From the NCBI RefSeq assembly GCF_000759775.1, contig NZ_BBMY01000001.1, positions 1 to 64,000 on the forward strand: a stretch of 64,000 bases of DNA. The letters are read 5' to 3'. This stretch comes from Escherichia albertii NBRC 107761 = DSM 17582. GTDB taxonomy: Bacteria; Pseudomonadota; Gammaproteobacteria; Enterobacterales; Enterobacteriaceae. The stretch's first letter is position 1, and the number at the start of each line of letters is the position of its first letter. Shown here piece by piece: positions 9,326 to 32,519 of the stretch. Under the pieces are notes generated by a model, which saw nothing but the letters and a program-made list of their open reading frames with translations, made no database searches and was not told where the DNA came from. The position numbers and the translations under genes are program-made.

Positions 9326-10660
9326 TTATTTCTGCAATTCCATTCGTTTAATGTCGCCAACCACAAAGAGGTAGCAGACCATCGCCATCAGCGCCGAACA
9401 TCCGACAAAGACCAGAGCCGCATTGAAGGAGTGCAATTCACTCACCAGATAACCAATCACCAGGGGAGTGACGATGGAAGCAACATTGCCAAAGACGTTA
9501 AATACGCCGCCGCAGAGGCCAATAATCTCTTTCGGCGCGGTATCGGAAATCACCGGCCACCCCAGCGCGCCAAAACCTTTGCCAAAAAAAGCCAGCGCCA
9601 TCAGCATGATTACCAGCGTGGTGTTGTTGGTGTAGTTACATAAGATGATGGTGGAAGCCAGCAGCATACCCAGCACAATCGGTAACTTACGCGCCAGAGT
9701 CAGAGAAGCGCCGCGTTTGATCAAATAATCCGAAAAGACACCGCCGAGTACGCCGCCGGCAAAACCACACAATGCCGGAATCGACGCGACCAGTCCCACT
9801 TTCAGAATCGACATCCCCTTTTCCTGCACCAGATAAATCGGGAACCAGGTCAGGAAAAACCAGGTGATGGTGTTGATAAAATATTGTCCGAAAAATACTC
9901 CCAACATCATGCGGTTAGAGAGCAATTGCTTGATGTAATGCAGCCTGGGACCACTTACCGTCGCACTGCCCGGCTTTTTGTGATCCATATCGACCACCGC
10001 GCCATTTTCAGAGATAAACTTCAGCTCTTCCGCTGAAATACGCGGGTGCTCTGTCGGGTTATGAATTAACTTGACCCACAACGCCGTTAGCACAAAACCA
10101 ATTCCTCCCATGACGGTAAAAACATGTTCCCAGCCCCAGGCGAAGGTCAGCCACCCCAACAGCGGCGAGAAAAGCGCCAGAGAGAAATATTGCGCCGAGT
10201 TAAAGATAGCGGAGGCGGTTCCCCGTTCTTTCGTCGGGAACCAGGCAGCCACAATACGGGCGTTAGCGGGGAAGGAAGGTGCTTCCGAGAACCCCAGCAT
10301 AAAGCGCATAAAAAACATCGAGATACCTGCCCAGGTCAGCGGGAACATATCGACAAAGCCTTGCAGGAAGGTGAACAGCGACCAGAAAAAGAGGCTGTAA
10401 GTGTAAACTCTCTTCGATCCAAACTTATCAAGCAACCAGCCGCCAGGGATCTGCATCAGCAGGTAGGCCCAACCAAAAGCGGAGAAAATATAGCCCATTG
10501 AAACCGTGCTTAATTGCAGTTCTTTTGCCACTTCAGTACCGGCAATCGACAGCGTTGCACGATCGGCATAGTTAACAGCGGTCACAATAAAAATAATAAG
10601 TAATATTAAATAGCGTGTATGTACGCCTTTCTTTTTTTCTTCCACGGTGTCCAGAATCAT
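9326..10660 (-). CDS. garP: Galactarate/glucarate/glycerate transporter GarP
   Basis: This 444-residue major-facilitator protein of the anion:cation symporter (hexuronate transporter-like) family has about twelve membrane segments. The MFS motif between TM2 and TM3 appears as GGWLLDKFGSKRVYT. It imports D-galactarate and D-glucarate. An extended frame to 10786 would add a 42-residue AT-rich hydrophobic extension. The start MILDTVEEKK at 10660, followed by a short charged segment and the first helix, is the normal one. It is the first gene of garPLRK, divergent from garD. Confidence 0.95.
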   Translation of the reverse strand: MILDTVEEKKKGVHTRYLILLIIFIVTAVNYADRATLSIAGTEVAKELQLSTVSMGYIFSAFGWAYLLMQIPGGWLLDKFGSKRVYTYSLFFWSLFTFLQGFVDMFPLTWAGISMFFMRFMLGFSEAPSFPANARIVAAWFPTKERGTASAIFNSAQYFSLALFSPLLGWLTFAWGWEHVFTVMGGIGFVLTALWVKLIHNPTEHPRISAEELKFISENGAVVDMDHKKPGSATVSGPRLHYIKQLLSNRMMLGVFFGQYFINTITWFFLTWFPIYLVQEKGMSILKVGLVASIPALCGFAGGVLGGVFSDYLIKRGASLTLARKLPIVLGMLLASTIILCNYTNNTTLVIMLMALAFFGKGFGALGWPVISDTAPKEIIGLCGGVFNVFGNVASIVTPLVIGYLVSELHSFNAALVFVGCSALMAMVCYLFVVGDIKRMELQK

Positions 10661-13604: not shown

Positions 13605-14414
13605 TCACTCTCCGACCAGAATCACCTCAATCCCAGCCTTTCGCAGTCCTTCCAGACTATCCGCAGGAATGCCTTCATCAACAATGATCATATCGATCCG
13701 CTGGGTATCGATGATTTTATGTAGGCTGGATCGGTTGAACTTACTGGAATCGGTGACCACGATGATCCGTTCCGCGACTTCGCACATCCGCCGATTTAAA
13801 CGTGCTTCATCTTCATTGTGCGTGCTGACGCCACGCTCCAGATCGATAGCATCTACGCCGAGAAATAACATATCGAAGTGATAATTTTGCAGCGATTGCT
13901 CCGCCTGATCGCCGTAAAAAGATTGCGACTGACGGCGCAGATGCCCGCCGGTCATCAGGAGCTCAACGCCTTCCGCTTCCAGCAAAGCATTGGCCACGTT
14001 CATACCGTTGGTCATGGCAATGACGTCGGTGTGCTTGCGCATCAAACGAGCAATCTCAAAAGTAGTGGTTCCTGAGTCAAGAATGATGCGATGACCCGGT
14101 TGAATTAACTCGACGGCTGCCTTTGCAACGCTACGTTTCATCGCGATATTCAACGCACTTTTATCTTCCACCGAAGGCTCGAGCGAGGGCGTATTACTGT
14201 CGCAGATCAACGCGCCGCCGTAGGCACGCACAGCGATCCCCTGTTTTTCCAGGAATGCAAGATCGTTGCGGATCGTCACCGTAGAAACACCAAATAATGC
14301 CGACAGATCATTAACCTGCACGCTACCTTGCTGGCGTAGTCGTTGAATGATCTGCTCTCGTCGTTCGCTGGTGCCCGTTACTCGCTTCTCGCCTGCAGCG
14401 TCGGTATTGCTCAT
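13605..14414 (-). CDS. agaR: DeoR-family repressor AgaR
   Basis: This 269-residue DeoR/GlpR-type regulator has an N-terminal helix-turn-helix (about residues 20-55, with [16 protein letters not shown]) and a C-terminal sugar-phosphate-binding domain of the DeoRC type ([11 protein letters not shown] near 115). It represses the aga/kba operons until an amino-sugar phosphate binds. It is divergent from kbaZ, and the 248-base spacer holds several TTTCGTTT-type operator motifs matching the known AgaR recognition pattern. Confidence 0.94.
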
Positions 14415-14662: not shown

Positions 14663-15943
14663 GTGAAACATCTGACAGAAATGGTGAGACAGCACAAAGC
14701 GGGCAAAACAAAGGGGATTTATGCCGTTTGTTCCGCGCATCCGCTGGTGCTGGAAGCAGCAATCCGCTACGCCTGCGCAAACCACACGCCGCTACTGATT
14801 GAAGCGACCTCCAACCAGGTGGACCAGTTCGGCGGTTATACCGGAATGACGCCCGCCGATTTTCACGGCTTCGTTTGCCAACTCGCCGACTCGCTGCATT
14901 TCCCACAGGACGCGTTGATTTTGGGTGGCGATCATCTTGGCCCTAACCGCTGGCAAAACTTGCCTGCCGCTCAGGCCATGGCTAATGCCGATGATTTGAT
15001 TAAAAGCTACGTCGCGGCGGGATTCAAAAAAATCCATCTCGATTGCAGTATGTCTTGTCAGGACGATCCGGTTCCCTTAACCGATGACATCGTGGCTGAG
15101 CGCGCTGCCCGTCTGGCGAAAGTGGCGGAAGAAACCTGTCGTGAACACTTTGGCGAAGCCGATCTGGTGTATGTCATTGGTACTGAAGTTCCGGTGCCCG
15201 GCGGCGCGCATGAAACCTTAAACGAACTGGCGGTCACCACACCGGATGCCTCCCGCGCCACGCTGGAAGCCCATCGTCACGCCTTTGAAAAGCAGGGGCT
15301 GAACGCCATCTGGCCGCGCATTATTGCGCTGGTCGTGCAGCCTGGCGTCGAATTCGATCACACCAATGTTATTGATTACCAGCCAGCAAAAGCGACCGCC
15401 TTAAGCCAGATGGTCGAAAACTATGAAACGCTGATTTTCGAAGCTCACTCCACCGATTATCAAACGCCGCAGTCACTGCGCCAGTTGGTGATTGACCACT
15501 TTGCCATTCTGAAAGTTGGCCCGGCGCTGACTTTCGCCCTGCGTGAGGCTCTGTTTTCTCTGGCGGCGATTGAAGAAGAACTGGTGTCGGCAAAAGCCTG
15601 TTCCGGTCTACGCCAGGTACTGGAAAACGTGATGCTCGACCGCCCGGAATACTGGCAAAGCCACTACCACGGAGACGGCAACGCGCGTCGTCTGGCACGC
15701 GGTTACAGCTACTCGGATCGCGTACGCTACTACTGGCCAGACAGCCAGATTGATGACGCTTTCGCTCATCTGGTCCGCAATCTGGCGGATGCGCCTATTC
15801 CGCTGCCGCTCATCAGCCAGTATCTGCCGCTGCAATACGTGAAGGTTCGATCCGGCGAGCTACAGCCAACGCCACGGGAACTCATTATCAACCATATTCA
15901 GGACATCCTGGCGCAGTACCACGCCGCCTGTGCAGGCCAATAA
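14663..15943 (+). CDS. kbaZ: Tagatose-1,6-bisphosphate aldolase subunit KbaZ
   Basis: This 426-residue protein of the GatZ/KbaZ family is the non-catalytic partner needed for full activity and stability of aldolase KbaY. It resembles a class II aldolase fold but is regarded as a chaperone-like subunit. The start is GTG preceded by GGAGAGGA. Features include [12 protein letters not shown] and the family segment [12 protein letters not shown]. It is the first gene of kbaZ-agaVWEFA and lies 22 bases before agaV. Confidence 0.95.
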
Positions 15944-15965: not shown

Positions 15966-16439
15966 ATGCCAAATATTGTTTTAAGCCGGATTGATGAACG
16001 CTTGATTCACGGTCAGGTCGGCGTTCAGTGGGTCGGATTTGCGGGGGCAAATCTGGTGCTGGTAGCCAATGATGAAGTTGCCGAAGATCCGGTACAACAA
16101 AACCTGATGGAAATGGTGCTGGCAGAGGGGATCGCCGTACGTTTCTGGTCGCTGCAAAAAGTCATCGACAACATCCACCGCGCCGCCGATCGGCAGAAAA
16201 TCCTGCTGGTTTGTAAAACACCTGCCGATTTCCTGACGCTGGTTAAAGGTGGCGTTCCGGTGAGTCGCATTAACGTTGGCAATATGCACTACGCCAATGG
16301 CAAGCAACAAATCGCCAAAACGGTTTCTGTGGATGCAGGCGATATCGCGGCATTTAACGATCTGAAAGCCGCTGGGGTGGAATGCTTCGTTCAGGGCGTT
16401 CCAACAGAACCTGCTGTGGACCTCTTTAAATTACTTTGA
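15966..16439 (+). CDS. agaV: N-acetylgalactosamine PTS EIIB component AgaV
   Basis: This 157-residue EIIB domain of the mannose-family PTS accepts phosphate from EIIA and passes it to N-acetylgalactosamine during uptake. The active-site histidine is in the N-terminal motif RIDERLIHGQVGVQW (His at about residue 13). An upstream in-frame ATG overlapping kbaZ would add 12 residues; the ATG at 15966 with GAGGA eight bases before is preferred. It is part of the AgaVWEF transporter and paralogous to AgaB in this cluster. Confidence 0.95.
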   Translation: MPNIVLSRIDERLIHGQVGVQWVGFAGANLVLVANDEVAEDPVQQNLMEMVLAEGIAVRFWSLQKVIDNIHRAADRQKILLVCKTPADFLTLVKGGVPVSRINVGNMHYANGKQQIAKTVSVDAGDIAAFNDLKAAGVECFVQGVPTEPAVDLFKLL

Positions 16440-16449
16440 GGGAATCATC

Positions 16450-17229
16450 ATGGAAATTAGTCTGTTGCAGGCATTCGCGTTAGGCATTCTCGCCTTTATC
16501 GCTGGCCTGGATATGTTTAACGGTTTAACCCATATGCACCGCCCGGTGGTCCTCGGTCCGTTAGTCGGGCTGATACTTGGCGATCTGCATACCGGTATTT
16601 TAACCGGCGGTACGCTGGAACTGGTATGGATGGGGCTGGCTCCGCTGGCGGGCGCACAACCGCCTAACGTCATTATCGGCACCATTGTCGGCACGGCGTT
16701 TGCCATTACCACAGGTGTGAAGCCGGATGTTGCTGTCGGGGTCGCCGTACCTTTCGCGGTTGCGGTACAGATGGGGATTACCTTCCTGTTCTCGGTGATG
16801 TCTGGCGTGATGTCCCGCTGTGACCGGATGGCGGAGAATGCCGATACGCGCGGCATTGAACGCGTGAACTATCTGGCGCTGCTGGCGCTTGGCATCTTCT
16901 ACTTTCTCTGCGCTTTTCTGCCGATCTATTTCGGTGCAGAACACGCAAAAACCATTATTGATGTCCTGCCGCAACGCTTAATCGACGGCCTCGGCGTCGC
17001 AGGCGGCATCATGCCAGCCATCGGTTTTGCCGTACTGCTGAAAATCATGATGAAAAACGTCTACATCCCTTACTTCATCCTGGGCTTTGTTGCCGCCGCC
17101 TGGCTCAAGCTACCGGTGCTGGCTATTGCTGCCGCCGCACTGGCGATGGCGCTGATCGACCTGCTGCGTAAATCTCCTGAACCGACTCAACCTGCGGCAC
17201 AGAAAGAGGAATTTGAAGATGGCATCTAA
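16450..17229 (+). CDS. agaW: N-acetylgalactosamine PTS EIIC component AgaW, full length
   Basis: This 259-residue membrane protein of the mannose-family EIIC type has several hydrophobic helices and the signature segment GTLELVWMGLAPLAGAQPPN, which is family-typical. With AgaE it forms the sugar channel. From memory, K-12 carries a truncated agaW fused by a deletion that removed agaE, agaF and part of agaA; here the gene is complete and runs into agaE with an 11-base overlap. Its function is therefore likely retained. Confidence 0.94.
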   Translation: MEISLLQAFALGILAFIAGLDMFNGLTHMHRPVVLGPLVGLILGDLHTGILTGGTLELVWMGLAPLAGAQPPNVIIGTIVGTAFAITTGVKPDVAVGVAVPFAVAVQMGITFLFSVMSGVMSRCDRMAENADTRGIERVNYLALLALGIFYFLCAFLPIYFGAEHAKTIIDVLPQRLIDGLGVAGGIMPAIGFAVLLKIMMKNVYIPYFILGFVAAAWLKLPVLAIAAAALAMALIDLLRKSPEPTQPAAQKEEFEDGI

Positions 17230-18097
17230 CCAAACCACCCTGCCGAATGTCAGCGAAAACGAAGAAACGCTGCTGACTGGCGTCAATGAAAACGTGTATG
17301 AAGATCAGAGCATTGGCGCGGAGCTGACGAAAAAAGATATCAACCGTGTCGCCTGGCGTTCCATGCTGTTGCAGGCTTCTTTTAACTACGAACATATGCA
17401 GGCTTCCGGCTGGCTGTACGGTCTGCTGCCGGCTCTGAAAAAGATCCACACCAATAAACGCGACCTGGCGCGCGCCATGAAAGGACATATGGGCTTCTTC
17501 AATACCCATCCGTTTCTGGTGACGTTTGTTATCGGCATTATCCTCGCGATGGAGCGTTCTAAGCAGGATGTAAACAGTATTCAGAGCACCAAAATTGCCG
17601 TCGGCGCGCCGCTCGGCGGGATTGGTGATGCGATGTTCTGGCTGACGCTGCTGCCGATTTGTGGCGGGATAGGCGCAAGCCTCGCACTACAAGGCTCTAT
17701 TCTTGGCGCGGTCGTATTTATTGTGCTGTTCAACGTGGTGCATCTCGGTTTGCGTTTTGGTCTTGCGCATTACGCGTATCGAATGGGCGTCGCCGCAATC
17801 CCGCTGATTAAAGCGAACACCAAAAAAGTGGATCATGCGGCGTCTATCGTTGGGATGACGGTGATCGGCGCACTGGTAGCGACCTATGTCCGTTTAAGCA
17901 CCACGCTGGAAATTACGGCTGGCGATGCTGTGGTGAAATTGCAGGCTGACGTTATCGACAAACTGATGCCAGCCTTCTTACCGCTGGTCTATACCCTGAC
18001 GATGTTCTGGCTGGTACGTCGCGGCTGGAGTCCGCTGCGTCTGATTGCCGTCACCGTGGTCCTCGGCATCGTCGGTAAATTCTGTCATTTCCTTTAA
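17219..18097 (+). CDS. agaE: N-acetylgalactosamine PTS EIID component AgaE
   Basis: This 292-residue mannose-family EIID protein has a long soluble N-terminal part with FNYEHMQASGWLYGLLP and NTHPFLVTFVIGI, characteristic of EIID, and C-terminal membrane segments. It pairs with AgaW for N-acetylgalactosamine uptake. A TTG at 17213 is also in frame, but the ATG at 17219 follows AAGAGGA at better spacing. The gene is missing from K-12 (from memory) and intact here. Confidence 0.94.
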   Translation: MASNQTTLPNVSENEETLLTGVNENVYEDQSIGAELTKKDINRVAWRSMLLQASFNYEHMQASGWLYGLLPALKKIHTNKRDLARAMKGHMGFFNTHPFLVTFVIGIILAMERSKQDVNSIQSTKIAVGAPLGGIGDAMFWLTLLPICGGIGASLALQGSILGAVVFIVLFNVVHLGLRFGLAHYAYRMGVAAIPLIKANTKKVDHAASIVGMTVIGALVATYVRLSTTLEITAGDAVVKLQADVIDKLMPAFLPLVYTLTMFWLVRRGWSPLRLIAVTVVLGIVGKFCHFL

Positions 18098-18114: not shown

Positions 18115-18549
18115 ATGTTAAGTATTATTTTGACAGGGCATGGCGGATTTGCCAGCGGCATGGAAAAAGCAATGAAGCAAATTCTCGGCGAGCAGTCGCA
18201 GTTTATCGCGATCGATTTCCCGGAAACCTCAAGTACCGCATTACTGACTTCGCAGCTTGAAGAAGCCATCGCCCAACTGGATTGTGAAGACGGCATTGTT
18301 TTTCTGACGGATTTGTTGGGCGGCACACCGTTTCGCGCGGCTTCAACGCTGGCAATGCAAAAACCGGGCTGTGAAGTGATCACCGGCACCAATTTACAAC
18401 TGTTACTCGAAATGGTGCTGGAACGCGAAGGATTAAGCGGTGAAGAATTCCGTGTACAAGCGCTGGAGTGCGGACACCGTGGGCTGACCAGTCTGGTGGA
18501 CGAGTTAGGTCGCTGCCATGAAGAATGCCCGGTCGAGGAAGGAATATGA
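18115..18549 (+). CDS. agaF: PTS EIIA component AgaF
   Basis: This 144-residue EIIA of the mannose family takes phosphate from HPr. The phosphorylated histidine is His9 in ILTGHGGFASGM, and the conserved FLTDLLGGTPF is at about residues 63-73. It serves AgaVWE and is thought also to serve AgaBCD, which has no EIIA gene of its own. The stop overlaps the agaA start (ATGA), so the two are translationally coupled. Confidence 0.95.
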   Translation: MLSIILTGHGGFASGMEKAMKQILGEQSQFIAIDFPETSSTALLTSQLEEAIAQLDCEDGIVFLTDLLGGTPFRAASTLAMQKPGCEVITGTNLQLLLEMVLEREGLSGEEFRVQALECGHRGLTSLVDELGRCHEECPVEEGI

Positions 18550-19685
18550 CACACGTTCTGCGCGCCAGAAGGCTGCTGACTGAAGAGGGCTGGCTCGATG
18601 ACCATCAGCTGCGTATTGCTGACGGTGTGATCGCGGCAATCGAACCGATCCCCGTAGGTGTAACCGAACGCGATGCGGAGCTGCTCTGCCCCGCTTATAT
18701 CGATACTCATGTACACGGCGGTGCGGGCGTTGATGTGATGGATGATGCGCCGGATGCGCTCGACAAGCTGGCAATGCACAAAGCGCGCGAAGGCGTCGGC
18801 AGTTGGTTGCCGACGACCGTAACCGCGCCACTCAATGACATTCATACGGCGCTGGAACGTATCGCACAACGTTGCCAACGTGGCGGGCCAGGCGCACAGG
18901 TGCTGGGGAGTTATCTCGAAGGACCGTACTTCACGCCGCAGAATAAAGGCGCGCATCCGCCGGAGCTGTTCCGCGAGCTGGAGATTGCCGAACTGGATCA
19001 ACTGATTGCCGTTTCTCAGCACACCTTGCGCGTGGTAGCGCTGGCACCAGAAAAAACGGGGGCATTGCAGGCCATCCGCCATCTTAATCAGCAAAACGTA
19101 CGGGTGATGCTGGGGCATAGCGCGGCGACCTGGCAACAAACCTGCGCCGCATTTGACGCTGGTGCAGACGGCCTGGTGCATTGCTATAACGGGATGACAG
19201 GTTTACATCACCGCGAACCGGGAATGATTGGCGCGGGGTTAACGGACAAACGCGCCTGGCTGGAGCTGATTGCCGATGGTCATCATGTGCATCCGGCGGC
19301 GATGTCGCTGTGCTGTTGCTGTGCGAAAGAGAGGATCGTACTGATCACTGACGCGATGCAGGCCGCCGGGATGCCAGATGGTCGTTATACATTATGCGGT
19401 GAGGAGGTGCAGATGCACGACGGTATTGTACGCACCGCGTCTGGTGGACTGGCGGGCAGCACGCTGTCTGTCGATGCGGCGGTACGGAATATGGTCGAGC
19501 TGACAGGTGTGACGCCAGCAGAGGCGATTCATATGGCATCGCTACATCCGGCGCGAATGCTGGGTATGGATGATGTTCTCGGATCGCTAAAACCAGGGAA
19601 ACGCGCCAGCATTATCGCTCTGGATAGCGGATTGCATGTGCAACAAGTCTGGATTCAGGGCCAATTAGCTTCAGGAGTATTGTAA
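18546..19685 (+). CDS. agaA: N-acetylgalactosamine-6-phosphate deacetylase AgaA
   Basis: This 379-residue NagA-type amidohydrolase removes acetate from N-acetylgalactosamine-6-phosphate. The metal motif DTHVHGG starts at residue 53; EGPYF, VMLGHSAA and the catalytic-aspartate segment LITDAMQAAG are all in place. The start overlaps the agaF stop. A cysteine-rich SLCCCCAKER segment is unusual-looking but lies outside the metal site. The protein is complete here, whereas K-12 keeps only a truncated version (from memory). Confidence 0.95.
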   Translation: MTHVLRARRLLTEEGWLDDHQLRIADGVIAAIEPIPVGVTERDAELLCPAYIDTHVHGGAGVDVMDDAPDALDKLAMHKAREGVGSWLPTTVTAPLNDIHTALERIAQRCQRGGPGAQVLGSYLEGPYFTPQNKGAHPPELFRELEIAELDQLIAVSQHTLRVVALAPEKTGALQAIRHLNQQNVRVMLGHSAATWQQTCAAFDAGADGLVHCYNGMTGLHHREPGMIGAGLTDKRAWLELIADGHHVHPAAMSLCCCCAKERIVLITDAMQAAGMPDGRYTLCGEEVQMHDGIVRTASGGLAGSTLSVDAAVRNMVELTGVTPAEAIHMASLHPARMLGMDDVLGSLKPGKRASIIALDSGLHVQQVWIQGQLASGVL

Positions 19686-19689
19686 ATTT

Positions 19690-19716
19690 GGGAGTGTTGG
19701 AATTTATAACACTCCC
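19690..19716. terminator. Bidirectional terminator between agaA and the acfC-like gene
   Basis: The stem GGGAGTGTT / AACACTCCC around a nine-base loop stands between two convergent genes. It ends the kbaZ-agaVWEFA transcript and separates it from the insert. Confidence 0.75.
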
Positions 19717-19727
19717 TGTCTTTATAT

Positions 19728-20489
19728 TTATGGGGTGCCCTTTTTGACCCAGCCATATTTTTCGAATGCTGGTGCTGCTTCATCAGAATGCAGCCATGCA
19801 GCAAACTGGCGGGTTTCAGCATCCGCATCCTGGCGTACGGCAATATTCATATCACGCCAGATAACATAATCCGGCGCTATCTCTACCACATCACCAATAC
19901 CGGGGTTACTGGCTGCCCAGTCAGCCCAGGTTATCCAGACATCAGCATCTGGCTGATTTTCCAGCGCTTTACGTGCTGTTCCACTGTTGGGCGCATACAG
20001 AATAATATTCTTGCGAATACCGGCTATGGTTTCAATATTCCCCTTACGCCCGGCAATATCTTCCCAAACACCGGTGCCAGATGTATTACTGGTTCCGCCA
20101 CCATCATTGACGATAATACCAATACCAGGCCTGGTCAGATCGTCAATCCCTTGAATGTTTTTAGGATTGCCTTTCTTTACCAGTAAAATACTTTTACGCA
20201 GGTAAAGAGGTTGAATATCCTTTTCGCTGAATCTGTCTTTATGATCACGGACGATAGCCAAAGCAGACTGCTCGGAAGCACCAAACAGAATATCAGCGTT
20301 TTGTCTGGCTTCTTCATTCCACTTCTTCTGTGGCCCGTAATGAACATTTACCGTAACACCGGTTTTCCTGGTGTAAAGATTAGCGGCATCCAGCAACGCT
20401 GTATGCGGGCCACCAGGCCCATACAAATTGATATCTGCATATGCAGCAGAAGATAGAAAGATTAAAACGCCAGCCAGTGTTTTTTTCAT
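19728..20489 (-). CDS. AcfC-like periplasmic substrate-binding protein
   Basis: This 253-residue protein has a cleavable signal peptide (MKKTLAGVLIFLSSAAYA, cut after residue 18) and no membrane anchor. The remainder has the pattern of type 2 periplasmic binding proteins of the sulfate/molybdate group (NLYGPGGPHTALLDAANLYT near the N-terminus, PNSGTARKAL in the middle). I relate it to AcfC, an accessory colonization factor of Vibrio cholerae with the same fold. No transporter genes adjoin it, so it is an orphan binding protein whose ligand is unknown. It is not part of the K-12 aga cluster. The AcfC name is from memory of the family. Confidence 0.7.
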   Translation of the reverse strand: MKKTLAGVLIFLSSAAYADINLYGPGGPHTALLDAANLYTRKTGVTVNVHYGPQKKWNEEARQNADILFGASEQSALAIVRDHKDRFSEKDIQPLYLRKSILLVKKGNPKNIQGIDDLTRPGIGIIVNDGGGTSNTSGTGVWEDIAGRKGNIETIAGIRKNIILYAPNSGTARKALENQPDADVWITWADWAASNPGIGDVVEIAPDYVIWRDMNIAVRQDADAETRQFAAWLHSDEAAPAFEKYGWVKKGTP

Positions 20490-21344
20490 AAATAACTCCT
20501 GTAGTTACATAATGCATTGAAATCATAACCAAACCAAACAACATGCCAACACTCATTACATAATTTTAAAAATCATTCATTTTGTTACACAAAATATTAA
20601 AGGTGCGGATCGGGATGAAATCTTTCATCGCCCACCAGAAGGAATACCTGGTGGTAAGTAGCAATGAGTTCATGGAGGTATGTGGAAGATAAAGAAGGAG
20701 CGACAGGTTACTGGTTCCGGGGAAAATGCGAATACTTGAAGGTGTGATGTATAAGGATAATGAAGACGAGTGCATCGGCGGTTACTGAAGGTCGCTTCAC
20801 TGAAGCCAGATGTGTTTGATAGATCTGCAGGGGAGCTATCGTTGGTCAGAACAGAACCTGATACATGAGCCACTTGCGACGGGGCCAACCCGGACTTTCC
20901 GCAAGGAATTTACGTCCTGAATCAGAGAAAATAAGCAAAATAAAGCCATCATGGTGTAAATCATTCGTGAGTAATCAACAAAAGCGATGATATTGTGCAT
21001 GTATCCCAGCACGAAATAAAATCGTAACAAAGTATTTTTTCTTTTTACGCACCAACGCCCCGTTATTTAAATTTTATCATTTAATTTATTCGGAATTGCC
21101 TGTGAGATGATTTCCTGAGTTGTTTCATTGGAAACGAATAGAAACAATCTATTAAAGTTGCTTTATTATCTGTCGCTGATGAATATGCAGAAAAAAATGG
21201 ACAATGCTAATCCAGCAGTGGGATTTAACATTGTCGCAGTTAACCATTTATTTTGAAAGGCAACTGAATACTGTAGTGGCGTTGTAGACCTTTTAACGTA
21301 ACACAGAATTCTGTACGCTTTCAGGAAACCGGAACTACTCGTCT
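20490..21344. other. Gene-free stretch with decayed coding-like sequence
   Basis: These 855 bases contain no complete gene. Between about 20600 and 20930 all frames are broken, but plus-strand fragments look protein-like in two frames, and two neat hairpins (20618-20633, and 20632-20654 with CCACCAG / CTGGTGG) are present. It may be a decayed gene or mobile element. I could not assign it to a family. Confidence 0.35.
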
Positions 21345-21812
21345 TTATGGCTGAATGTTTTTCTGGACGAATTGCTCCAGTTTTTTCAACACGTGTACTG
21401 AATCCATATCAAGACCATAACGTTTGAGCTCTTCTGCAGAATGATAGCTGACATTCACCTGTCCATCAGGGCGCTGGCTGATGAGAACGCGGAAAGGTAA
21501 ATCCAGCGCAAGTTCCGGGTGAGCTATCATCAAGGGCGTTCCCGCTCTGGGGTTACCAAATACCAGAACAGTCGTGGGGGGCATTGTAAGCCCGGCACCA
21601 TGAGCTGCCTTTGCATGATCAAATTCGCCAAATAAGACCAGTCCGTTATCTGAAATTGCTTTGATCAGACGTTCCCTGGTCTGTTGATAATCGAATGCAC
21701 TCTGAGATGTAATCAACATATGTGTACCATTTTCACTTGAGTGAGCCAAAGGCACAAATGCCAATAGCAATGCAGATATTAGAAAAAACGACTTCAGAAC
21801 TTTCTTCATCAT
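21345..21812 (-). CDS. Exported DUF302-domain protein
   Basis: This 155-residue protein has an N-terminal signal peptide (hydrophobic core LISALLLAFVPLAHS at residues 12-26) and a DUF302 domain at about residues 50-125. The family pattern GLVLFGEFDHAKAAHGAGL is followed by PPTTVLVFGNPRAGTPLM. The function of DUF302 is not established. The second ATG (codon 2) is an equally possible start; AGGGGAG precedes both. The gene is single, on the same strand as the acfC-like gene but about 850 bases upstream of it, and is foreign to the K-12 aga cluster. Confidence 0.75.
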   Translation of the reverse strand: MMKKVLKSFFLISALLLAFVPLAHSSENGTHMLITSQSAFDYQQTRERLIKAISDNGLVLFGEFDHAKAAHGAGLTMPPTTVLVFGNPRAGTPLMIAHPELALDLPFRVLISQRPDGQVNVSYHSAEELKRYGLDMDSVHVLKKLEQFVQKNIQP

Positions 21813-22443
21813 CTCCCCTTATTTATAGAGCCCCAAAAAGGTTGGTTATCGATATCTGGTCGTTTTATCTGGCTGGCCTTTTCTGAAGCGCTAAAGCGCC
21901 CTCTTTTTACAACCCAACCATCCAAATAAACAACCACCAACATAGTTATTATTTAACACTGACAGACATTACTGCAAGTATATCGGTTTTCCCCATTTAA
22001 TATTTATTGATAAAGGAATCATATTATAAAGACAGTAAGATGACATTATAGTATCAGGAGATATATATCGGTGTTCATTGAAGATGCCCGGTTTGGTTGT
22101 ACCAGAGGAATCATCTGAGGCCGCCCGGATTGCCCACCACACGGTCTTTTTCATAGTGTCGTCTATCACAATACCGACTTTACGAATCTCAGCCAGGTAA
22201 GCGAAGAACGTCGACAGACTGGCACAAGTTCGACAGCCAGAGCCTGCAACTGTTTTTCGACCATACCGCAACCTGGTTTTGATGTTGGATTGAACACATC
22301 AAAAGCAGACACTTACACAATCTTACGTACAGCTCTCTGTATGTTCTCCTTTTTCCTTCCCTTATCTTTTCTTTCAACGATCACAAATTTCACTTCATTT
22401 CTTTCTTAAGCATTTAGGTTTCAATTCCTTTTATATAGATTTT
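21813..22443. other. Spacer between the DUF302 gene and agaS operators
   Basis: No intact gene. On the minus strand around 22270-22060 there are two overlapping broken frames with protein-like content, one starting MVEKQLQALAVEL and another containing FAYLAEIRKVGIV. They recall small lambdoid-phage Ea-type proteins, but the match is weak. The rest appears non-coding. Confidence 0.3.
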
Positions 22444-22531: not shown

Positions 22532-23686
22532 ATGCCAGAAAATTACACCCCTGCTGTCGCAACTACCGGCACATGGACTGAAGAAGAAATCCGCCAACAG
22601 CCTCGCGCCTGGATCCGTTCTCTCGTCAACATTGACGCGTTACGCTCCGCGATTGATAACTTCCTTCAACCATTACTGCGCAAAGAGAACCTGCGGATCA
22701 TCCTGACCGGCGCCGGAACCTCGGCATTTATCGGCGACATCATCGCACCGTGGCTTGCCAGCCATACTGGCAAAAACTTCAGCGCCGTACCGACCACCGA
22801 TCTGGTTACCAATCCAATGGATTACCTGAATCCAGCCCATCCATTGTTGCTTATCTCCTTTGGCCGTTCTGGCAATAGCCCGGAAAGCGTCGCCGCCGTA
22901 GAACTGGCAAATCAGTTTGTACCGGAGTGCTATCACCTGCCGATCACCTGCAACGAAGCGGGCGCGCTCTATCAAAACGCGATCAACAGCAATAATGCAT
23001 TTGCCCTGCTGATGCCCGCAGAAACGCACGATCGCGGCTTTGCGATGACCAGCAGTATTACCACCATGATGACCAGCTGCCTCGCGGTTTTCGCACCTGA
23101 GATGATCAACAGCCAGACCTTCCGCGACGTGGCGGATCGTTGCCAGACGATCCTGACCTCTCTGGGCGATTTCAGCGAAGGCGTGTTTGGTTACGCGTCG
23201 TGGAAACGGGTCGTTTATCTCGGCAGCGGTGGCTTACAGGGCGCGGCACGCGAGTCGGCGCTGAAGGTACTGGAACTGACGGCGGGTAAGCTGGCAGCCT
23301 TTTATGATTCCCCAACCGGATTCCGTCATGGCCCAAAATCACTGGTCGATGGTGAAACACTGGTGGTGGTGTTTGTCTCCAGCCACCCTTACACCCGTCA
23401 GTATGATCTTGATCTGCTGGCAGAACTCCGCCGCGATAACCAGGCGATGCGCGTAATCGCCATCGCCGCGGAAAGCAACGACGTTATCGCCGCTGGCCCA
23501 CATATTATCCTGCCCCCCTCCCGTCACTTTATCGACGTTGAGCAAGCATTTTGCTTCCTGATGTACGCCCAGACGTTTGCACTGATGCAGTCGCTACATA
23601 TGGGCAATACACCGGATTCCCCATCAGCCAGTGGCACCGTAAACCGCGTGGTGCAAGGCGTCATTATTCATCCGTGGCAGGCATAA
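22532..23686 (+). CDS. agaS: Galactosamine-6-phosphate deaminase/isomerase AgaS
   Basis: This 384-residue protein with two SIS (sugar isomerase) domains has ILTGAGTSAFIGD and SFGRSGNSPESVAA in the first and YLGSGGLQGAARESALKVLELTAG in the second. It is the deaminase that turns galactosamine-6-phosphate into tagatose-6-phosphate, as shown genetically in E. coli. It is the first gene of the second aga operon, 12 bases ahead of kbaY, with AgaR sites upstream. Full length. Confidence 0.95.
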   Translation: MPENYTPAVATTGTWTEEEIRQQPRAWIRSLVNIDALRSAIDNFLQPLLRKENLRIILTGAGTSAFIGDIIAPWLASHTGKNFSAVPTTDLVTNPMDYLNPAHPLLLISFGRSGNSPESVAAVELANQFVPECYHLPITCNEAGALYQNAINSNNAFALLMPAETHDRGFAMTSSITTMMTSCLAVFAPEMINSQTFRDVADRCQTILTSLGDFSEGVFGYASWKRVVYLGSGGLQGAARESALKVLELTAGKLAAFYDSPTGFRHGPKSLVDGETLVVVFVSSHPYTRQYDLDLLAELRRDNQAMRVIAIAAESNDVIAAGPHIILPPSRHFIDVEQAFCFLMYAQTFALMQSLHMGNTPDSPSASGTVNRVVQGVIIHPWQA

Positions 23687-24559
<873 letters not shown>

Positions 24560-24723: not shown

Positions 24724-25200
24724 ATGAGCAGTCCAAATATTCTCTTAACCCGTATTGATAACCGTCTGGTTCACGGCCAGGTTGGCGTGACCTGGACATC
24801 CACCATCGGTGCGAATCTGCTGGTGGTTGTAGACGATGTTGTCGCTAACGATGATATTCAACAGAAACTGATGGGTATTACCGCGGAAACCTACGGCTTT
24901 GGCATTCGTTTTTTTACTATTGAAAAAACCATTAACGTCATCGGCAAAGCTGCGCCGCATCAGAAAATATTTCTGATTTGCCGTACGCCGCAGACGGTAC
25001 GTAAACTGATAGAAGGCGGTCTTGATCTGAAAGATGTCAACGTCGGCAATATGCATTTCTCGGAAGGGAAAACACAAATCAGCAGTAGAGTTTATGTCGA
25101 TGAGCAGGATCTCACAGATTTACGTTTTATTAAACGACGCGGCGTGAATGTTTTTATTCAGGACGTCCCTGGCTCTCAAAAAGAGCAAATTCCTGACTAA
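24724..25200 (+). CDS. agaB: Galactosamine PTS EIIB component AgaB
   Basis: This 158-residue mannose-family EIIB is a paralogue of AgaV; the phosphohistidine motif is LTRIDNRLVHGQVGVTW near the N-terminus. With AgaC and AgaD it forms the galactosamine-specific transporter. It lies 164 bases after kbaY, a gap without a gene. Because agaD downstream is frameshifted, AgaB probably has no working membrane partner complex in this strain. Confidence 0.94.
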   Translation: MSSPNILLTRIDNRLVHGQVGVTWTSTIGANLLVVVDDVVANDDIQQKLMGITAETYGFGIRFFTIEKTINVIGKAAPHQKIFLICRTPQTVRKLIEGGLDLKDVNVGNMHFSEGKTQISSRVYVDEQDLTDLRFIKRRGVNVFIQDVPGSQKEQIPD

Positions 25201-25238: not shown

Positions 25239-26042
25239 ATGCATGAAATAACTCTTCTTCAGGGGCTCTCCCTGGCGGCGTTAGTTTTCTTTCTGGGGAT
25301 TGATTTTTGGCTGGAAGCCTTATTTTTATTCCGACCGATAATCGTTTGTACTCTTACTGGCACTATTCTTGGTGATATTCAGACGGGTTTAATTACCGGC
25401 GGTCTGACAGAACTGGCTTTCGCCGGGTTAACCCCTGCCGGCGGCGTTCAACCGCCCAACCCGATTATGGCGGGTCTGATGACCACCGTCATTGCGTGGT
25501 CTACGGGCGTCGATGCCAAAACGGCAATTGGTCTTGGTCTGCCGTTTAGTCTGTTAATGCAGTACGTCATTCTGTTCTTCTATTCGGCATTCTCATTATT
25601 TATGAGCAAAGCCGATAAATACGCGAAAGAGGCGGATACAGCAGCGTTTACCCGACTTAACTGGATAACGATGCTGATTGTTGCCTCTTCGTATGTGGTG
25701 ATTGCGTTTCTCTGTACTTACCTGGCGCAAGGCGCGATGCAGGCACTGGTGAAAGCAATGCCGGCCTGGTTGACTCACGGCTTTGAAGTGGCTGGCGGTA
25801 TTTTACCTGCCGTCGGTTTTGGTCTGCTGCTGCGCGTGATGTTCAAAGCGCAATACATCCCTTATCTGATCGCCGGTTTCCTGTTTATTTGCTACATCCA
25901 GGTCAGCAATTTGTTACCTGTTGCCGTACTGGGCGCAGGCTTTGCCGTGTATGAGTTTTTCAACGCGAAATCCCGGCAACAAGTGCAACCGCAGCCCGTT
26001 GCCAGTAAAAATGAAGAAGAGGACTACAGCAATGGGATCTGA
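25239..26042 (+). CDS. agaC: Galactosamine PTS EIIC component AgaC
   Basis: This 267-residue mannose-family EIIC membrane protein is paralogous to AgaW, with the family segment GGLTELAFAGLTPAGGVQPPNP. It forms the galactosamine channel with AgaD. The GAGGTAAT ribosome site precedes the start, and its end overlaps the agaD start by 11 bases. The frame is intact, in contrast to agaD. Confidence 0.94.
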   Translation: MHEITLLQGLSLAALVFFLGIDFWLEALFLFRPIIVCTLTGTILGDIQTGLITGGLTELAFAGLTPAGGVQPPNPIMAGLMTTVIAWSTGVDAKTAIGLGLPFSLLMQYVILFFYSAFSLFMSKADKYAKEADTAAFTRLNWITMLIVASSYVVIAFLCTYLAQGAMQALVKAMPAWLTHGFEVAGGILPAVGFGLLLRVMFKAQYIPYLIAGFLFICYIQVSNLLPVAVLGAGFAVYEFFNAKSRQQVQPQPVASKNEEEDYSNGI

Positions 26043-26822
26043 AATCAGTAAAAAAGATATCACCCGTCTGGGCTTTCGTTCATCGCTGCTGCAAGCGAGC
26101 TTTAACTACGAAAGGATGCAGGCGGGCGGCTTTACCTGGGCGATGTTGCCGCTCCTGAAAAAGATCTATAAGGACGACAAACCGGGCTTAAGCGCGGCGA
26201 TGAAAGATAATCTGGAATTTATTAACACCCACCCGAATCTGGTCGGGTTCCTGATGGGGTTATTAATTTCAATGGAGGAAAAAGGGAAAACCGCGACACC
26301 ATTAAAGGTCTGAAAGTAGCGCTGTTTGGCCCAATCGCCGGGATTGGCGATGCGATTTTCTGGTTTACCTTGTTGCCGATTATGGCGGGAATTTGCTCAT
26401 CATTTGCCAGCCAGGGAAACCTGCTGGGGCCGATTCTATTTTTCGCCGTTTACCTGCTTATCTTTTTCCTGCGCGTCGGCTGGACCCACGTCGGTTATTC
26501 AGTCGGCGTGAAGGCTATTGATAAAGTGCGAGAGAACTCGCAGATGATTGCTCGTTCGGCAACCATCCCCGGGATCACGGTAATCGGCGGGCTGATCGCT
26601 TCGTATGTGCATATTAACGTGGTGACATCGTTTGCCATCGACAGTACCCACAGCGTCGCGCTGCAGCAGGATTTCTTCGATAAAGTCTTCCCGAATATTT
26701 TACCGATGGCTTACACCCTGTTGATGTACTACTTACTGCGGGTGAAAAAAGCGCATCCAGTACTGTTAATCGGCGTAACGTTTGTGCTTTCCATCGTTTG
26801 TTCCGCATTCGGCATTTTGTAA
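26032..26822 (+). pseudogene. agaD: Galactosamine PTS EIID component AgaD, frameshifted
   Basis: Frame 1 reads a normal EIID N-terminus (MGSEISKKDITRLGF onward) for about 84 residues up to the sequence MEEKG. It then runs out of frame and stops at 26313. The rest of AgaD continues in the next frame from about 26290 to 26822, including VALFGPIAGIGDAIFWFTLL and the normal C-terminus SIVCSAFGIL. The break is at GGG 26284-26286, where K-12, from memory, has GGGG (MEEKGENRDT). A single G deletion therefore explains it. EIID is essential for this PTS type, so galactosamine uptake by AgaBCD should be lost. A sequencing error or slippage at the A/G run cannot be excluded. Confidence 0.85.
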
Positions 26823-27590
26823 ATGGAACGAGGCACTGCGTCTGACGGTGCCTCCTTACTTAAGGAATTTCATCCTGTGCAAACCCTTCAGCAAGTGGAA
26901 AACTATACGGCGTTAAGTGAACTCGCCAGCGAATATTTATTGGACGTGATCTGTAGCAACCCGAATGCCGTGATTTGCCTGGCAACCGGAGCCACGCCAT
27001 TACTGACTTATCGATATCTGGTAGAAAAAATCCACCAGCAGCGCGTTGATATCAGCCATCTCACCTTTGTGAAGCTCGATGAATGGGTAGGCCTGCCATT
27101 AACGATGCCTGGCACCTGCGAAACTTTCCTTCAACAGCATATCGTGCAGCCGCTGGGGCTACGTGAAGATCAGCTCATCAGCTTTCGCTCCGAAGATATT
27201 GATGAGAGCGAGTGTGAACGGGTGACGAACCTGATTGCACGTAAAGGCGGGCTGGATTTATGCGTACTCGGTCTGGGGAAAAACGCTCATCTGGGGCTGA
27301 ACGAACCGGGAGAAAGCCTGCAACCGACCTGCCATATCAGCCAACTCGATGCCAGAACACAGCAACATGAAATGTTAAAAACCGCTGACCACCCGGTGAC
27401 TCAGGGGATCACCTTAGGGCTGAAGGATATTCTCAATGCCCGCGAAGTTTTGCTGCTGGTGACAGGCGAAGAAAAGCAGGATGCGACAGAACGTTTTCTC
27501 ACAGCTAAAGTCTCCACCGCTATCCCTGCTTCGTTTTTATGGCTGCATAACCATTTCACGTGTTTGACTGATGAGATGTGTCGTCGTTAA
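26823..27590 (+). CDS. agaI: NagB-like sugar-phosphate isomerase/deaminase AgaI
   Basis: This 255-residue protein of the glucosamine-6-phosphate deaminase/6-phosphogluconolactonase family contains LATGATPLLTY at about residues 53-63 and KLDEWVGLP near 88-96. Genetic work in E. coli found AgaI dispensable, AgaS being the deaminase. The active-site-type motif reads GLGKNAHLGLNEPG, where I remember glycine in place of the alanine in K-12 and NagB (DGH-type). The C-terminal dozen residues also differ from K-12. It starts at the base after the agaD stop, so it depends on read-in from upstream. Confidence 0.88.
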   Translation: MERGTASDGASLLKEFHPVQTLQQVENYTALSELASEYLLDVICSNPNAVICLATGATPLLTYRYLVEKIHQQRVDISHLTFVKLDEWVGLPLTMPGTCETFLQQHIVQPLGLREDQLISFRSEDIDESECERVTNLIARKGGLDLCVLGLGKNAHLGLNEPGESLQPTCHISQLDARTQQHEMLKTADHPVTQGITLGLKDILNAREVLLLVTGEEKQDATERFLTAKVSTAIPASFLWLHNHFTCLTDEMCRR

Positions 27591-27599
27591 CTCGCCTGC

Positions 27600-27638
27600 T
27601 ACAGGCGTTGCAGCGCTATTCCTGCTGCGACGCCTGTA
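27600..27638. terminator. Large hairpin between convergent agaI and rsmI
   Basis: ACAGGCGTTGCAGC (27601-27614) pairs with GCTGCGACGCCTGT (27624-27637) at 13 of 14 positions, between two stop codons. A bidirectional termination or mRNA-stabilising hairpin is likely, although T-tracts are weak. Confidence 0.6.
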
Positions 27639-27639
27639 A

Positions 27640-32160: not shown

Positions 32161-32519
<359 letters not shown>

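Follow-up and report, generated by a model that had tools for sequence, protein, structure and literature searches.

A one-base frame break in agaD of an Escherichia genome and the predicted loss of its galactosamine PTS

Organization of the aga/kba cluster

The window, i.e. the whole 64-kb stretch of DNA analyzed here, corresponds to C235:1-64000 of the genome G000, a draft of 4,422,416 bases in 235 contigs. It carries a 13-gene aga/kba cluster which extends from agaR on the minus strand to the end of agaI and follows the gene order of E. coli C (Table 1). Compared with E. coli C, 12 genes are unbroken and align either at full length or, in the case of agaA and agaI, one residue short. Among them are agaV, agaW, agaE, agaF and agaA, for which the first-pass annotation of the window had likewise assumed an intact state. 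The exception is agaD, located between agaC and agaI. A tentative pattern for AgaR binding sites gave no match.

Between agaA and agaS a 2.66-kb insert is found (19686-22346), with a lower G+C content of 0.43 and 0.41 in the two kilobases starting at 20000. Relatives match only the last 175-185 bases of this insert in front of agaS, plus pieces of about 110 bases in the Escherichia genome G005. From the sequence, the promoter region of agaS seems to be kept despite the insert. None of the E. coli records spans 80% of the insert, while 579 match part of it at 80-90%; among five of these that were listed, four are annotated as paa (AcfC family adhesin) and one as a substrate-binding protein. The insert encodes an intact SBP_bac_11 protein of 253 aa (19728-20489, minus strand) and a DUF302 protein (21345-21812, minus strand) whose N-terminus looks signal-like by eye. 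Downstream of agaI follows a gap of about 50 bases (27591-27639), where E. coli C possesses the fimbrial genes yraHIJK between agaI and rsmI; yraH and yraK have no match in the 64-kb window. Further downstream, after dolP, 3.9 copies of a 91-bp unit with 92% matches are present (32161-32516), and ORFs of similar repeats occur at C235:109042 and C234:108164 of the same genome.

Table 1. Features of the aga/kba cluster and broken genes found elsewhere in the genome. Positions without a prefix refer to the window
Feature	Position	Strand	Evidence or state
agaR, cluster repressor, intact	13608..14414	-	269/269 residues
kbaZ, intact	14663..15943	+	426/426 residues
agaV, EIIB of the GalNAc PTS, intact	15966..16439	+	157/157 residues, 99% to E. 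coli C
agaW, EIIC of the GalNAc PTS, intact	16450..17229	+	259/259 residues
agaE, EIID of the GalNAc PTS, intact	17219..18097	+	292/292 residues, 99% to E. coli C
agaF, EIIA common to both PTS, intact	18115..18549	+	144/144 residues, 99%
agaA, deacetylase, intact	18546..19685	+	376/377 residues aligned
agaS, intact	22532..23686	+	384/384 residues
kbaY, intact	23699..24559	+	286/286 residues
agaB, EIIB of the galactosamine PTS, intact	24724..25200	+	NF007288 above cut-off; 158/158 residues
agaC, EIIC of the galactosamine PTS, intact, 267 aa	25239..26042	+	NF007289 above cut-off; 96% to E. coli C, 267/267
agaD, EIID of the galactosamine PTS, frame-broken	26032..26822	+	NF007359 over two frames; tblastn in two pieces
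agaD start frame, 93 aa	26032..26313	+	profile match; tblastn against E. coli C
lesion place, one base fewer than compared copies	26284..26286	+	comparison with other copies
agaD remainder, shifted frame (profile 81-259)	26280..26822	+	first possible starts TTG 26370, ATG 26382
agaI, NagB-like, intact	26823..27590	+	NF007291 above cut-off; 250/251 residues against E. coli C
yadI	L111:5700-6136		one base fewer
gcd	L111 near 9413-9630		about 2.1 kb deleted relative to E. coli
macA	L112:3924-5044		8-bp tandem duplication
aes	L114:18295-19261		one extra base
decR	G000 C231:49323-49928		13-bp deletion against G003
caiB-like gene	G000 C234:108369-109583		in-frame stop at codon 31; 98.5% identical to G003
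yhcG-like gene	C235:92938-93306		G003 match only over the first 122/370 residues; whole in G009
aaeR-like LysR gene	G000 C235:112839-113765	+	in-frame stop at codon 82, else 98-100% identical to G003

The lesion in agaD

Read from the ATG at 26032, the GGG at 26284-26286 is codon 85 of agaD, and the missing base is located there, between a Lys codon and a GAA codon. The start frame yields 93 aa, of which about 84 are native and followed by a short foreign tail that ends at TGA 26311-26313. Positions 1-84 of the AgaD profile NF007359 correspond to residues 5-88 of this product, while in the shifted-frame reading (26280-26819) residues 2-180 correspond to profile positions 81-259 of 259; this second part ends with the stop at 26820-26822. 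Consistently, the best match to the AgaD profile in a six-frame search of the genome covers positions 80-259 at 302 bits. Taken apart, the pieces obtain 137 and 301 bits, and neither frame alone reaches 400 bits, the curated cut-off of NF007359 for the whole protein.

Each of the two pieces by itself appears as ordinary AgaD. With AgaD of E. coli C as query, tblastn gave 92% identity over residues 1-92 and 98% over residues 84-263, and NF007359 is the top-ranking profile for both, above AgaE or ManZ. The profile of the mannose-family EIID, PF03613, is matched with 102 and 194 bits (gathering cut-off 25) over positions 2-84 and 88-265 of 265, split over the two frames. In addition, the structure 6k1h of a mannose PTS contains an EIID chain which the second part matches over residues 7-180. 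Thus the frame switch at this GGG and the otherwise normal halves, both of which had been noticed from the sequence in the first pass, were recovered by profile and alignment.

The assumption that the intact gene should read GGGG at this place was not confirmed. In the ten copies known from the genus the codon is GGA (4), GGG (4) or GGC (2), in each case followed by GAA. Since the codon differs among these copies, the identity of the lost base cannot be named from the sequence, and slippage within a G run would be just one of several possible routes.

agaD in other genomes

Of 11 other Escherichia species genomes searched, ten possess agaD, and all ten copies comprise 792 bp with an open frame and a single terminal stop. 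The comparison with related genomes, which had been suggested in the first pass, thus reveals a frame that is broken relative to ten of ten genus orthologues, as expected for a pseudogene. The only genome of the 11 without a DNA match to agaD is G002. It retains EIID-related matches to the AgaD profile (best E 4.5e-58), and the part of the aga cluster that holds agaD may have been lost there. Among 25 named loci from a collection of contigs, 24 show the motif of the lesion site, each time in frame. Four of these 24 probably come from the genomes G006, G008, G009 and G011 and hence overlap with the genus set.

Within E. coli, 5,224 of 5,426 genomes show a match to agaD. From these we took 60 records at even steps, and 59 of them match over 792 bases, as judged by match span alone. 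In the remaining record (PRO_A-1412-6M-A_ESBL, NZ_CM136169.1) agaD is cut beside IS1. A search with the AgaD profile in a sample of the family revealed at least 14 of 246 genomes, own genome included, above the cut-off. All 14 cover profile positions 1-259 and lack internal stops; below the cut-off of NF007359 the list blends AgaE and other EIID proteins. With 14 of 246 genomes among the matches listed, this suggests that the AgaBCD system is optional in the family.

No second genome of the source species turned up: E. coli records spanning the whole agaD reach identities of at most 96.0%, with records from the same genome possibly left out. A megablast search with 61 bases centered on the lesion found no match, which is no evidence either way, as an exact word of 28 bases was required.

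Age of the lesion

Both parts of agaD were compared separately with ten relatives. The N-terminal part shows 0-2 non-synonymous and 11-15 synonymous differences and the C-terminal part 2-5.5 and 20-50.5, so that dN/dS ranges from 0 to 0.042. No second lesion was found in agaD. Given the low ratios in both parts and the lack of another lesion, the gene has by its sequence kept a signature of purifying selection, and the lesion is either young or absent from the cell.

Other broken genes of the genome

Five 20-kb pieces of the genome are 88-91% identical to the best-ranked E. coli records, and a few E. coli records share short pieces of at least 95% identity with them. The contig of the window shares 91.4-91.5% identity with G009 and G003 over approximately 127-130 kb, and 89-92% with G004-G007 over shorter alignable parts. 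By these identities, the source genome is to be regarded as an Escherichia species separate from E. coli; a distance of this size would suit E. albertii.

Two comparisons were made. One set five whole contigs (464,828 bases) against the matching parts of the closed G003 chromosome, the other set the five 20-kb pieces against annotated E. coli. In the latter, 78 annotated genes were found, with 11 absent genes left uncounted, and 71 of the 78 are intact. Among the seven flagged genes, yadI, macA, aes and gcd are real breaks, and the remaining three reflect genes with LemA/TPM domains that align only in part; from these three, the LemA gene was aligned in detail. Against G003, four further genes are interrupted or shortened, here designated aaeR, caiB, yhcG and decR (Table 1). 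In the reverse direction no gene was recognized as broken in G003, as judged from the result rows.

Over the five contigs, the mechanical flags comprise 27 of 321 G003 ORFs in our genome and 15 of 324 of its ORFs in G003. On the contig of the window, 18 of 164 ORFs common to G003 and G009 are flagged (19 of 164 with the references swapped), compared with 7 of 144 when G003 is the target and 6 of 141 for G009. Such counts of frame breaks are noisy, and most flagged ORFs look antisense or extended. When three flagged ORFs of this contig were aligned, two proved to be intergenic or shadow ORFs and one a real nonsense codon (aaeR). Besides these, yadI, macA, aes, gcd, the LemA gene and decR were aligned, while the other rows were judged by reading frame, stop location and identity, so that broken genes may have been missed on both sides.

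Within 465 kb, agaD, aaeR, caiB, macA, decR, aes and yadI are broken, gcd is mostly deleted relative to E. coli and the yhcG-like gene is cut short. Because the breaks are of mixed kinds, the genome, as judged from these alignments, truly holds young broken genes. However, such a mixture does not prove that the single-base breaks in agaD, yadI and aes are true. On this basis one might tentatively read the agaD lesion as part of a broader and recent reduction of accessory genes in this Escherichia lineage, although we hold this reading to be doubtful. If such decay extended over the whole genome, some dozens of young pseudogenes would be expected, and with them a narrowing way of life.

Predicted phenotype and competing explanations

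The loss of one base affects agaD about one third into the gene. Translation would run out of the AgaD frame at codon 85 and terminate after 93 residues, and the product, with the C-terminal two thirds missing, should be non-functional, while AgaB and AgaC may still be produced. In PTS of the mannose family, IIC and IID jointly form the membrane part and both are required. Because of this joint requirement, uptake of galactosamine via AgaBCD should be lost. The DNA encodes AgaVWE, the common EIIA AgaF and the downstream enzymes in intact form, and we infer from this that the strain would be GalNAc+ GalN-, which is the natural prediction from an intact agaVWEF and agaA beside a broken agaD and agrees with what had been proposed from the sequence before. 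The intact agaA is unnecessary to this argument, since nagA is able to replace it (PMC3668189). Elsewhere in the genome, two other intact EIID genes score above the cut-off of the ManZ family; another PTS might allow galactosamine to enter slowly. Altogether, we consider it likely that agaD was broken recently, that the galactosamine PTS consequently lacks a complete EIID and that the strain grows on N-acetylgalactosamine but not on galactosamine.

This explanation competes with the view that the cell carries the base and an undamaged agaD, the gap being an error of sequencing or assembly. The genome is a draft of many contigs, the difference is a single base adjoining short runs of A and G, and the rest of agaD shows no decay, which fits a sequencing error equally as well as a very recent mutation. 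Furthermore, three breaks of this genome are of the single-base kind that assemblies get wrong, since yadI and aes accompany agaD. On the other hand, few gene frame breaks were recognized in the five contigs, and none other than that of agaD in the 141-kb contig of the window against G003 and G009, where three flagged ORFs were aligned. Several breaks, namely the 13-bp deletion, the 8-bp duplication and the nonsense codons, are no slips of base calling, and the intact state need not be a run of G, with GGA or GGC in six of the ten relatives. The survey of frame breaks thus leans towards real decay, as far as sequence comparison can tell. We regard an assembly error as rather improbable and a true break of agaD in the cell as likely.

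Another conceivable explanation is that the break is bridged, either by a -1 ribosomal shift near 26284 or by an internal restart, so that some AgaD is still made. By eye, an A-rich stretch precedes the lesion, and the stop at 26311 follows it at a distance of 27 bases within which a shift would help. However, judged by the rule X XXY YYZ for slippery heptamers, no heptamer with good re-pairing of both tRNAs was seen by eye, and the runs of A near the lesion are only 5 and 4 long, which is short for slippage of the transcript. The ten copies of the genus are in one frame, so there is no conserved shift, and for these reasons a programmed frameshift or slippage was rejected on the sequence. A restart at TTG 26370 or ATG 26382 would yield 146-150 residues and miss about the first 113 of 263. 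Bridging in any form is therefore very improbable.

Known losses of the galactosamine PTS

The genes agaBCD serve galactosamine uptake (PMC3668189). In the O157:H7 strains EDL933 and Sakai, codon 8 of agaC is an amber codon and the phenotype is Gam-, with EDL933 described as Aga+ Gam- (PMC3668189). We found the amber stop in one O157:H7 record (NZ_CP038423.1, L109), in which agaI in addition carries a stop at codon 72. The case presented here resembles that of O157:H7 in that a point lesion hits one membrane subunit, beside a GalNAc PTS that works there according to the same report. It differs by affecting EIID instead of EIIC, and by a frameshift instead of a nonsense codon. The Aga+ Gam- state is reported for O157:H7, whereas it is only predicted for our strain, and agaI is intact here. 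In E. coli, agaI is dispensable for growth on either sugar while agaS is required for both (PMC3668189).

K-12 had been cited as having the opposite kind of lesion, a contrast which the literature does not support. K-12 is Aga- Gam- (PMC3668189), with a 2.3-kb deletion in the aga cluster (PMC3668189, PMC9628945, PMC3032704) by which agaF is lost (PMC9628945, PMC3032704). As the IIA encoded by agaF is common to both PTS in E. coli (PMC12118421), this deletion disables both of them. K-12 thus shares with our strain the loss of PTS parts within the aga cluster, but in contrast to it lacks the GalNAc EIID together with the common EIIA gene. Consequently, of the claim that the two PTS are inactivated independently in different lineages, the independent loss of the galactosamine PTS stands and was already in print for O157:H7 (PMC3668189), while the part built on K-12 fails.

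Two further cases are comparable. In PRO_A-1412-6M-A_ESBL agaD itself is lost as well, yet by truncation beside IS1; agaI, yraH and yraI are not annotated there, and the usher gene is reduced to its end. The O157:H7 spinach outbreak of 2006 provides another point lesion in one of the PTS genes, as agaF carries Gly91Ser there (PMC3668189, PMC4809568); unlike the agaD lesion, it is a missense change in the common EIIA and leads to Aga-. Among the papers listed by our literature search, none describes a disrupted agaD in a comparable strain.

With O157:H7, the literature already contains a lineage that lost the galactosamine PTS independently, and the agaD case is an ordinary one. The point it adds is small, as both the inactivation by a point lesion and the Aga+ Gam- phenotype have been published for that lineage: outside E. 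coli, another Escherichia species would have lost this PTS independently. In practice, metabolic models built from this genome should not credit AgaBCD.
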